Origin: Chiridota heheva
Taxonomy: Eukaryota; Echinodermata; Holothuroidea; Apodida; Chiridotidae
Reading direction: 5' to 3'
Assembly (NCBI GenBank): GCA_020152595.1
Contig: JAIGNY010003060.1
Location: 22,501-86,500 of the forward strand
Length of the DNA stretch: 64,000 nucleotides
Below, piece by piece: positions 43,701-55,700 of this stretch. The translations under genes were made by a program, and so were the position numbers. Below the pieces are notes generated by a model. That model did no database searches. It was given only the letters and a program-made list of their open reading frames with translations, and was not told where the DNA came from. Numbering within the stretch: position 1 is the stretch's first letter; every line of letters begins with the position of its first letter.

Positions 43701-46700
43701 CATGTTCAAGCATCAACTCGTGACAACTGAATGGTAGGTATGAGAATGTAAAGTCACTCTTTACGTCAGTCATGTTCAAGCATCAACTCGTGACAACTGA
43801 ATGGTAGGTATGAGAGTGTAATGTCACTCTTTACGTCAGTCATGTTCAAGCATCAACTCGTGACAACTGAATGGTAGGTATGAGAGTGTAATGTCACTCT
43901 TTATGTAAGTCATGTTCAAGCATCAACTCGTGACAACTGAATGGTAGGTATGAGAATGTAAAGTCACTCTTTATGTCAGTCATGTTCAAGCATCAACTCG
44001 TGACAACACAATGGTAGGTATGAGAGTGTAATGTCACTCTTTATGTCAGTCATGTTCAAGCATCAACTCGTGACAACCGAATGGTAGGTATGAGAGTGTA
44101 ATGTCACTCTTTATGTCAGTCATGTTCAAGCATCAACTCGTGACAACACAATGGTAGGTATGAGAGTGTAATGTCACTCTTTATGTCAGTCATGTTCAAG
44201 CATCAACTCGTGACAACTGAATGGTAGGTGAGAATGTAAAGTCACTCTTTATGTCAGTCATGTTCAAGCATCAACTTGTGACACTACAATGGTAGGTATG
44301 AGAGTGTAATGTCACTCTTTATGTCAGTCATGTTCAAGCATCAACTCATGACAACTGAATGGTAGGTATGAGAATGTAAAGTCATGTCAGTCATGTTCAA
44401 GCATCAACTCGTGACAACACAATGGTAGGTATGAGAGTGTAATGTCACTCTTTATGTCAGTCATGTTCAAGCATCAACTCATGACAACCGAATGGTAGGT
44501 AGATAGATTGGGTGTTTTACATCCCTTTTTCAACCGCTACTGAAATGTTATCTAGTGATGTCCACAGTCAATACTTGAATGATTTATAAAGCACTGGTGA
44601 TTGGAACAAGATCTTGAAGTAGTATTTTTTAGTGGTGGATCCAGAGGGGGTCCAAGAGGTCCATTGCCAACTTGTCGAGTAGGCCTGGACAACTTATCGA
44701 GCCATTGCATTGAACTTTGTCAGGGAAGTCCTTATAAAGTATTTTATTCCATAAAAAGCATCTTAGGTATACAGCGAAGCTCCGCCACAACCCACCTCAG
44801 CCACACCCATCAATGAAATAACTAGGCAACCCATCGTGGAGTGGCGGACCACCTAAGGAGGAATTCCTAGTGCCACCACTGGTTTCTTTACATTTCTCTT
44901 TGTGCTTTAATCCTCTATCATATGACATATAGAGATATCTCACCACTAAGCTAGTCCAAAGATATGCTTCTCTGGATTACACAATTTAAAAAAAATTCAC
45001 TTCAAAACACAGTATTTTTTACAATTTCATGGATGTAAAACTCAAGAAAGAGTGGGTTTTTACCGTTGTAAACGAATCCTTTTTCCAGCGGGTCATAAAA
45101 CTCCATGTCTAGAATCCTCTCCAGCAGTAGTTTGTCCTTCACAACATAGTCAATGTCTCTCATACCCTGGGAAAGAGTCATGAGGTGAGAATTATTTAGA
45201 TGAGTCGTGAGGTGAGAATTAATTAGATGAGCCGTGAGGTGAGAATTAATTAGATGAGTCATGAGGTGAGAGTTAATTAGATGAGTCATGAGGTGAGAAT
45301 TAATTAGATGAGTCGTGAGGTGAGAATTAATTAGATGAGCCGTGAGGTGAGAATTAATTAGATGAGTCATGAGGTGATAATTAATTAGATCAAGAATGCT
45401 CATATCCTAGGAAAGAAAGGTTTACAATTCCAACTGCCCAGACATAGCCAGTGAGGTCATGCTTCAGTACATGCTTCAGTACATACTTCAGTATATACAA
45501 AAAAGTGCATAGTATATGTGAATTAAAGCATGACATCACTGGCCATGTCTGGGCAGGTAGAACGAGGAGTGAACACACAATTACAATGACGGAGTCGTCG
45601 CCTGCGTACTTGGTTATGATAGTAACAATGCTATCACGAAACGCTTAATACAACCCGGACGAGAACACAGGTACGACGTACGGACATACATAACATCGAC
45701 AACCAAGTCAATGTCCACGGCCTTTGATAACCAGTTGTGGTGCACTGGCGTGTCTACCCAACTCAGGCTTGAAGCCAGGGCCTCGTGGTATGTAGACATG
45801 TATAATAAACGCTACAGCACAGTAGGTAGACAAGGCAGTAAGAATTGTAAGCCTTTCTTTATAAATGTAGCAGACAAGGTTCAAGGATCGTGCAGACCTG
45901 AAGACAAGGTTTAAGGACCATGCAGACCTGAAGACAAGGTTCAAGGACTGTGCAGACCTGAAGACAAAGTTTAAGGACCGTGCAGACCTAAAGACAAGGT
46001 TCAAGGACCGTGCAGACCTGAAGACAAGGTTCAAGAACCGTGCAGACTTAAAAAAAGCTACGGTTTAGGCGATTAAGGCCACAGAAAAAACTGGAATTCA
46101 CGGGAAGAATTCTTTTTTTCTCATGAAAAATAAATAAATAAAAAATATATGTTTTTAGAGAGATTTCTTGAGAAAGTATGGTAAATGTGCTCTGCAAACA
46201 TACCTCATGTTATTGTGTAATGTATGTAAATGAATAGAACATTAAATTGCAAAAGAGGGAAGCATACAAAGATTTATTTACTACAATAATATTATTTGTG
46301 TCACCATTTTTCATGGAAAGATTTTTGACAATTTTTTCAGAAGCGTGGGAAATTTGCTAATGCATTCCAACTCTTGGACCAAGGCATAGGTGCTGGTATC
46401 AGTACTGCAAAGGTCTCGTGAAACCTTGTTTCATAGATAGGAAGCTTTTCTGATACAAATGCAGAATATGATGGTTTGGTTTGGTTTAATGAGGTTTAAC
46501 GAGAGATCAGTATTGTAAGTGGTGCTGAATATGAACAAACAAAAAAGTCTACAACTGTTTAGTGGCAGCAAAAGCTAAATTGTTTATTAAAATAATAATT
46601 TTTTTTTTATAATATTTACTTACTTCAAGTTATACCTTACCTTCCATGCTATAATTATGCAATCTGGTCACACGACCTGATTCTAACGCACTTCTAACCG

Positions 46701-52700: not shown

Positions 52701-55700
52701 GGTTGGCAGCCCTTCTTGTATCGTTTTATATTAACGGCCTGCCTTTTGTTTCGCTAGCCTTTGATTTTTGGTCAGTCGGTTTCAACCACCTTTGCTCAGG
52801 GTCGGCGGTTTTTCTGGACTGCGGATGGTGTCGTTCAGTCCCTCCGCTTTACACATTCAGTCGGTGGTCACCCCCTTTGGTGGTGGTGCGGGTGCTCCCA
52901 CCTGGTGTAAGGAACGAAGTTTTCACCCGTCAGATATCACCGTCGGTGCCGGACGGGGCTTCTTGATCAAGGTCGGGCACTTTTCTTGTGACCCCTTCTG
53001 TCGGAAACTTGGGCGGGTACTTGACCTTTTCGACAGGCAGAATGCCGGGGTTTTTCGTTCACCTTTTTACCGCTAGTGCTGGCGAGGCTTTTCAGTTTTG
53101 CGCCACGGTTGTGGTCTCCTTTTCGGACAGAGAGGTACGGACTCCACGTGTTCTGGATTCGTTCCTCGTCTCGGCGCAGGACGAACTTTGGCTGCTCAAG
53201 ACCTTGCAGGCTTCGCGTCACGAGCCTCGGGTCAGGGACGATTTTTGTCTCTTTCCGGGCTCCGGTGGACTGCATCTCAGTCCGAGCGCCGTTTGATGGT
53301 GTGGCCTCGGCCCGCCTTTCCTCGGCGTAGCATGGCTTTTCTGAGGGGTTGTTCACCCCCTCCCGTTGTGGAGGTGGGCCCTCTCTCAAGCTTAGTTCCG
53401 TCATGAGCTCTGGGATATCTTGCAGCTATCCACGGGGTTTTCCAGTGGGGTCTACGGTCTTTGACTCGCGACCACTGGTAAATTCTGTGGAGATCTCTTC
53501 GTAGTGTGTCATGTGACATTTTCCTCCGATAGATCGTCCAGTGGCTTTCTTTTAAAGTAGTCTGAACTGTTCATCGAACGGCCGCGGTATGCACTCGGGT
53601 TGGGGCATAACCTCTTTTCACGGGATCTCTTGTGCGCCGTTCGAAAACGCTTTTTGCGGTTTTTCTCCTGTTTTTGGTCTGACTCACTTTTCGACGTTCG
53701 TGTTCCCCGCTAACTTTAGATCTTACGCGGTTATGCGCTAACGATTTTTTCCTTTGTCGGGATTTCTTCAATTCGTTTTTCGTTGGTACACGCCGTTCCC
53801 AATCGTAGTTTACTCGCCGGTTCCGTCTCGTGGGCCGAATCCGGTGTGGCTTAATGGCGTTTTTGTGAACACTTTGCTGTAATTGTGTCCAAACGCTCTT
53901 CAGGTTGGCTTGTTTTTCTGGGCTTTTCGCTCCAGGCTCTTTCGAGGTTTGCCTCCGTTACTGTCAACGTATGGTGCCTTGTTCGGTTTGACTGTACCTC
54001 GCCGTGGTTTACTATGTTTTAGTTCTTCCCACTCTTGAGGTCTTTCATCCTTCCGAGGAGAAGGAATTTCGTCCTTTACACGGGATTCGATTCGTGTGAG
54101 TTTTCGTACCAGCCATTAAAAAAAAAAAAAAAAAAAAATGTGCGTGACCTGAACTCCCTTCCTTCCTATCCTCGGTTGCAATCTGATTGCATAATTATAG
54201 CATGGAAGGTAAGGTATAACTTGAAGTAAATTTACCCGCTAAGCGTGGCGGGGATATTTACGAGTTATACTTACCTTCCATGCATCCCGCCCGCCTCCCC
54301 TCTCGTTCAGGCCTCGGTGGAATGTTGAGTGAGGTGGTACAGAGGTATTATGGAGGTCAGGGCTTGGCTGGTTACTGCGTTTTTTAGGTTTGGTTAGAAG
54401 TGCGTTAGAATCAGGTCGTGTGACCAGATTGCATAATTATAGCATGGAAGGTAAGTATAACTCTCGTAAATATCCCCGCTATGCTTAGCGGGGTAAATAT
54501 ACTTTAAATAATATTCACCTTAACTTAAATTCAAATTGAATATTTTTATGCAAATTTGAGCTGCATTGCTGGGCAGAGCTCTTTATTTTGTTTTGTTTTT
54601 ACTACAAAAGAAGAGCAGATATCTGACAAAGAGATTTTGGCATTTTAGTATGGTTGCATCAACCACTAGCTGGTGGAGACCACATCATTTTCAATGGCTA
54701 AAATTTAGGTAAGAAATGTTAAATATCAAAAACATTTTAAGTTTCAGGGCTTACATACCTTGCACATTCCTCATATACTGAAGATTCATCAAAAAAAGAT
54801 TCTGCATAACTTGAAGTCTTTTTTCTTCTTCAAGAAATCTTAAATAGATACAAATGCACTCAGAATTTAATGTCATTTTAGTTGCTAACTAATGACCTTT
54901 TACATACCATGCAGGCTCCTAGGGGGCAATTCCAACAATAATTTCCGCTACTGTGCAAAAAAGTGGCATCTTTTGAAACACCATGCAAGGTCCACAAAAC
55001 TCCTAACATGACGAGTCATCATTTATATCAATGAAATTGCTAATAAGGTTGTGTTACAACTGAAATTGCCTGGAAACCATCATCATGTTGATTAATTGGT
55101 GGTCAAACTTACATGGTCAATGAAAGTAGCCAGGAACTTGTTCATGGTGGCATAAGCATCCAGACTAAGATCGACCCTTGATCCTGTTCTGTTGGACTGC
55201 GCTTGATCTATATGAAGGGGAAAAAGCCATCTCATTTTTATTGTCTTGTGAAATTACAAACTCAAGAACTCTTCCAAACTGGTATACATTTCTCTGCAAA
55301 AGTTAAGTCCCTTAAATTGATGTGTTTTATTATGATCGTAAACCAAACAATTCAGATTTCGAAATACTTCACAAATCAAACAGCACATATATATAAGACA
55401 AGTTACCAGAATGTATGCATATGTAGTTGACTTCTTAACAAAGCTTTGTCAATCAAAAAGTTCATAAACAAACATGGATGTGATATTTGCCTTTCCAGTA
55501 TGAGGGGGACCAGTGAACTTGAAAAAAGGGTTAATTAATCTCAAATAATCTAAATATTATATGCAAATATTTATAATTTTAAGCATTTTCATATTGCTGT
55601 ATTGAATTCATATCACCTTTTGAAAAGAGGTCTGGATGTTAAAGGAAACAGAATCATTAAATTGTTAAAATAACTTCTCAAAGAAACAGGTTTTGGTGCT

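Follow-up and report, generated by a model that had tools for sequence, protein, structure and literature searches.

DIRS1-like tyrosine-recombinase retrotransposons were described, in the accessible sections of Piednoel et al. 2011 (PMC3266345), to contain inverted terminal repeats (ITRs) that are split into a conserved and a divergent part, with an extension at the right, and an internal complementary region (ICR) whose two halves overlap on a 3-nt circular junction. The same sections give a shared sequence of 10 nt or more in the ITRs and ICRs, an ICR length of 85-130 nt, a conserved ITR length of 31-304 nt and a reverse transcriptase (RT) motif of YL/IDD, whereas the order of left-ICR then right-ICR is given for DIRS in the available part of PMC8969392. 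A 64,000-base stretch of the Chiridota heheva genome (contig JAIGNY010003060.1, positions 22,501 to 86,500; hereafter the window) was analysed here, and its positions 46619-54500 were read as one insertion of the DIRS1-like family in the form of a non-autonomous copy, a reading to which we give a probability of about 0.85. Window coordinates are used unless the second copy, L014, is named.

The left tip (46619-46664) was found to contain the core CTT (46619-46621), placed from the ICR and from the comparison with L014, followed by a stretch copied in the ICR, with 46620-46664 being identical at 45/45 positions to the reverse complement of 54185-54229. The ICR (99 nt) was found to contain a left half (54185-54230) ending in the core AAA (54228-54230), followed by a right half (54228-54283), in the order left-ICR then right-ICR. 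The right tip (54442-54498) matched the reverse complement of 54230-54283 at 91.2% over 57 columns. The conserved ITRs were found at 46636-46764 and 54327-54455 (129 nt, 128/129 alike, one mismatch), the right one being followed by the divergent ITR and the right extension (54456-54500), which lies beyond the conserved ITR, pairs with the ICR and contains a hairpin at 54474-54493 (DNA fold z -3.3) and the core TAT (54498-54500). The element including the 3-nt core spans 46619-54500 (7,882 bp), and all features given here are on the plus strand. A terminal direct similarity was present between the ICR and the right ITR (54185-54253 and 54427-54493). The 14-mer GCATGGAAGGTAAG was found in four mismatch-free occurrences in the window, which are each ITR and each ICR half.

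In a control over the whole window, six exact inverted repeats of at least 20 nt were found, four of which were the tips, ITRs and ICR of the element, and in the remaining two a poly-T run at 648-668 was paired with its A tract. A chance origin of the complementarity between the tips and the ICR is excluded. The original prediction had proposed that the reverse complement of 54185-54283 equals the right tip plus the left tip, which was confirmed at 45/45 for the left part and at 91% for the right part, and that the ends are inverted repeats of each other, as the conserved ITRs are at 128/129. It had also placed the tips without a target-site duplication; no duplication was visible at the element ends, and the ends themselves were shifted by 1-2 bases to 46619 and 54500. 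A likeness of the right flank 54501-54513 to the left arm of the element was noted at 10/13 bases, with 34 of 112,212 background positions being equally good, and remained weak when extended to four lengths (18/9336, 14/4868, 39/2482 and 79/1770 background windows equally good). A target site resembling the left arm was not used, because the length was chosen post hoc and the L014 flank contained no such likeness by eye.

The element shares with DIRS1-like elements the ITRs, the double ICR at the 3' end, the right extension, the 3-nt core, the short shared sequence and the lack of a target-site duplication, and both its ICR and its conserved ITR fall within the published ranges. By our own reading of its parts, its dimensions are close to those of XtDIRS2, GaDIRS2 and TnDIRS1a in Table 3 of PMC3266345. 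However, its length of 7,882 bp differs from the 3,974-6,283 bp of the 28 elements listed in the accessible sections of that paper, and it was found to contain no recognisable genes, with an interior of degenerate repeats. Unlike Ngaro, PAT and VIPER, it contains no split direct repeats of the A1 - B1-A2-B2 type, and its ends are inverted repeats. LARDs are large non-coding derivatives of long terminal repeat (LTR) retrotransposons, and the window element resembles them in being long, non-coding and presumably trans-mobilised with its ends kept, whereas it has DIRS ends and a presumed recombinase in place of the LTRs and integrase of LARDs. SIRE is given in part of PMC6681497 as the non-autonomous form of VIPER, and like SIRE the window element is a non-autonomous tyrosine-recombinase retrotransposon derivative with both ends kept. 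According to the same passages, SIRE contains ~185 bp of the 5' end, 30 bp from inside and 220 bp of the 3' end, and its parent contains split direct repeats, whereas the window element is 7.9 kb long with ITRs and an ICR. The phrase 'non-autonomous DIRS' was not found in the literature searched, which has few subscription papers. A non-coding DIRS with ITRs and ICR was not described in the passages available from PMC5633606, PMC6681497, PMC2685390, PMC9210276, PMC12477816, PMC5753468 and PMC5941688, and may well be catalogued elsewhere (e.g. in Repbase, which lay outside the search).

The genome beyond the window was sampled in 26 stretches of the same assembly (252 kb), which were picked regardless of content, not randomly. 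A DIRS copy at another site was found in one of them (L014; G000:C5:1-10000), on the minus strand at 720-9441, and the window element was unmatched in the remaining 25 stretches at E <= 1e-3. The tips of L014 coincide with those of the window element, and it contains an ICR of its own, with the cores TTT, TTT and AAA at the left end, the right end and the ICR, respectively. No match was found between its flanks and those of the window copy among the 70 matches listed. Another copy with the same tips, which the original prediction had proposed to look for, is present at another site and ends at the same points.

The original prediction had likewise proposed to find a coding copy with RT, RNase H and tyrosine recombinase. 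L014 contains a broken RT (PF00078, E 8.2e-8, 32.6 bits, above the Pfam cut-off of 29.6 bits) in which one in-frame stop was entered as X, and its RT motif reads YLDG. The ten single L014 pieces without X gave one match in Pfam, a C-terminal RT piece (PF00078, E 0.0013, 18.9 bits) below the cut-off, and the comparison of the RT with PDB at E up to 1 gave 25 sequences, mostly or all of them RTs, with a weak best E of 0.0034. The L014 frame 2893-3270 is a candidate DIRS RNase H, which it resembles by eye, and contained no relevant match in Pfam, NCBIfam or PHROGs. The frame 1887-2399 resembles by eye a DIRS tyrosine recombinase (YR), for which it is a candidate, and contained no relevant match in Pfam, PDB, NCBIfam or PHROGs. 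Neither of the outcomes that would have spoken for another kind of element was seen: the sole other copy shares its end points with the window element, and no DDE transposase was matched by Pfam in the L014 pieces scanned, nor was any transposase matched among the scanned window open reading frames (ORFs) and L014 pieces. Exact patterns of the tip, the ITR and the unit had no occurrence in viral contigs, those of the tip and the ITR had none in genome contigs, and the L014 RT had no confirmed relative in the viral contigs; these negatives say little because the collections are viral, bacterial and archaeal. The DIRS-type assignment of the original prediction is supported by the ITRs, the ICR, the core and the same-tipped copy with an RT, and what is new is the large non-coding copy, which it did not mention. 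As a separate observation, L014 was found to contain two adjacent long interspersed element (LINE) 3' pieces in the same orientation at ~6813-8833, inside the second DIRS copy.

The window copy was found to contain a left terminus and leader at 46620-47226 (75.8% to L014 9440-8832 over 616 columns), followed by a tandem duplication of a 151-bp unit at 47616-47916 and a GC-rich minisatellite of ACGGTTCCGCGG-type units with periods of 43-93 bp at 48056-48784. These were followed by the units U1 (48780-49310; 77.7% to L014 6533-5996, its sole matching place in L014), U2 (49625-50075; a second degenerate copy, 83% to U1 and 75.7% to L014), U3 (50081-50427; 74.0% to L014), U4 (50436-50723, in the pieces 50436-50530 and 50531-50723; 78.1% and 75.5% to L014) and U5 (51037-51191; 71.5% to L014). 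The internal units were ~69-83% mutually alike with many 1-bp indels. At least five places of the window (48780-51191) matched L014 around 6569-5996 at 71.5-78.1%, and the window units had no second place in L014. A pol-region trace of ~120 bp was found at 53191-53308 (70.2% over 124 columns, E 7e-11, to L014 2725-2604), and its counterpart in L014 sits between the RNase-H-like and recombinase-like frames. The 3' region before the ICR (54038-54184) contained an A tract at 54118-54138, and 54038-54496 as a whole was 82.2% alike to L014 1168-724. The A tract corresponds to a mere AGAAAAT in L014, and a captured cDNA, which such a tract might suggest, was rejected since by this comparison the short A run of L014 has been expanded locally in the window copy. 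The stretches 47227-48779, 51413-53190 and 53309-54037 gave no blastn match in L014.

No DIRS1-like coding capacity was found in the window copy itself. Among the 81 of 100 listed ORFs of at least 42 aa that were compared with Pfam, none matched better than E 0.0093, and RT, RNase H and recombinase were all absent from the matches; among 20 proteins, 18 of them from the element, nothing above the cut-off was found inside the element (best E 0.0083, below the cut-off). The longest frame (242 aa, in the minisatellite) was reached by 2/100 shuffles and a 124-aa frame in 46765-48060 by 4/100, frames elsewhere were shuffle-like (38 and 52 of 100), and neither of the two contained a Pfam match above the cut-off. 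The RT, RNase-H-like and recombinase-like frames of L014 matched the window at chance level only (seven matches, best E 1.4). With matches of 71-82% retained in the leader, the units and the 3' end, the coding region is probably absent for the most part, not merely diverged. The units were rejected as a coding relic, because the mismatches between units were even modulo 3 (17/17/19 and 17/22/19) and the gaps were of 1 bp.

Folding in 150-nt windows gave an element mean z of -1.09 on the plus strand versus -0.27 in the flanks (z < -2 in 12/52 versus 5/77), and of -1.15 versus -0.43 on the minus strand (13/52 versus 6/77). Six plus-strand windows had z < -3, with three in minisatellite-type repeats and one across the ICR. 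Better folding than the flanks was not accepted as evidence for a conserved structured RNA, and the five aligned units gave an unfavourable covariation term (+2.53), with two-sided change kept in 8/50 pairs. Rfam gave no match at the gathering threshold, no tRNAs were found, and a scan for bacterial promoters and terminators remained at shuffle level.

The observed-to-expected ratio of CpG, scored in 1-kb windows with three straddling ones excluded, was 0.95-1.42 in 14/14 windows inside the element versus at most 0.80 in 110/110 outside. In L014 the ratio was 0.64-0.68 in the coding and right-hand parts and 0.44 in the leader, and its ITRs were mutually 90% alike over 104 nt. From its undepleted CpG and near-identical ITRs the window copy looks young, and the two features together suggest a recent, trans-mobilised insertion. 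The units are ~69-83% alike but the ITRs differ at 1/129, for which the simplest account is that gene loss and unit divergence preceded the last movement; enzymes from elsewhere would then have been needed for that movement. With the two copies aligned, the left and right ITR had changed together in 14 of 140 columns and not in 16; 92 columns were identical in all and 18 were gapped, a fair degree of left-right concert, although no null model stands behind these or the following counts.

Several results weigh against the reading of a non-autonomous, trans-mobilised DIRS copy. Concert between tip and ICR was slight at the left (of 48 columns, 2 changed in tip and ICR together, 5 in the tip alone and 1 in the ICR alone, with 1 classed as other and 39 the same) and absent at the right (of 59 columns, 0 changed in both together, 3 in the tip alone and 7 in the ICR alone, with 1 classed as other and 48 the same). 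Fresh templating from the ICR predicts equal agreement, yet the agreement between tip and ICR half is 91% at the right versus 45/45 at the left, with 128/129 for the ITRs. Both window ends deviate from the core by one base, whereas the compared elements listed in the accessible sections of PMC3266345 have one end off each (XtDIRS2 TTT/TAT/AAA, AcDIRS1 CTT/CAT/AAG). The high CpG may partly stem from repeat composition, not age. Two of the four chance-level YR matches lie on the plus strand downstream of the pol-region trace (53467, E 2.6; 53930, E 7.0), and tblastx gave scattered short pieces whose E-values come from linked sets, so that small decayed coding remnants are possible. The RNase H and recombinase in L014 were recognised from resemblance by eye. 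Only one other copy was found in the 26 stretches, which falls short of showing a multi-copy non-coding subfamily or an intact helper.

An unlikely alternative is that unrelated DNA of the host or of a satellite was captured as cargo between DIRS ends. The three interior stretches without a blastn match in L014, the first of which holds the GC-rich minisatellite, would agree with such a capture. However, the leader, the 3' end and the units of 48780-51191 are homologous to L014, and at least those parts are therefore family sequence; the A tract is a locally expanded form of the short A run in L014, and the interior had no match elsewhere in the window save A tracts and short matches of at most 23 nt (E 1.3 or worse). 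It is somewhat less probable still that an autonomous DIRS copy was inserted here and that deletions and expanding repeats then removed its genes at this site, the copy never having moved in its present form. The persistence of the pol-region trace is in line with decay in place, and the 91% agreement of the right tip with its ICR half permits an older insertion; but internal divergence as large as that of the units, with their many 1-bp indels, should after insertion have left marks on the ITRs, which are alike at 128/129 with the left tip and ICR at 45/45, and CpG is undepleted inside the element. The long inverted repeats would also suit a DDE transposon of the foldback type that contains a piece of its ends internally and looks like DIRS by coincidence. 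Such an element is highly improbable, since the ends show no target-site duplication and L014 contains the same 3-nt core in its ICR and at both ends and encodes an RT.

Under the favoured reading of a non-autonomous DIRS1-like copy, the termini and the ICR would have been retained, the RT, RNase H and recombinase region lost, and part of the interior filled by amplified leader sequence. In a working that follows the published model of DIRS-1, the element would be transcribed and its RNA reverse-transcribed by the enzymes of a coding relative, followed by pairing of the cDNA ends with the ICR, which would bring the right and left tips together around the core of 3 nt. The expected circle junction would be GGTAAA-TTT-ACTTCAAG. 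A tyrosine recombinase would then insert the double-stranded circle by recombination at a target of 3 nt, without producing a target-site duplication; circle formation, the recombinase and the mobilisation in trans are what we infer. We tentatively suggest, at somewhat less than even odds, a long-lived, trans-mobilised and wholly non-coding DIRS lineage, in which the body evolved through amplification of the element's leader and only the termini and the ICR carry the lineage.

The remainder of the window was found to contain two LINE copies (11971-17240 and 18248-23372) that are 91.6% alike across 5,497 columns. Both contain RNase H, and endonuclease and RT were above the cut-off in the 18248-23372 copy; pieces of the same LINE family were present in the sampled stretches L010, L014, L018, L023 and L026. 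Long minisatellite arrays were found at 25191-26592 (36 bp unit), 30829-31662 (18 bp), 33794-34621 (19 bp), 42410-44501 (70 bp) and 59473-60487 (26 bp). On the minus strand, 61885-62343 matched Meckelin (TMEM67) over 41 residues (E 2.2e-17) and is probably a host-gene exon, which speaks for a eukaryotic and probably animal host.

The occurrence in one genome of a non-coding copy that is young and a coding copy that is old offers a natural test of the templating of tips from the ICR, which so far the left side fits and the right side fits less well. If copies of the window type were numerous, this would suggest that the tips and the ICR suffice in cis for the movement of DIRS. Such sufficiency, if true, bears on the DIRS replication model, which is described in the passages available from PMC5633606 as experimentally not fully proven.

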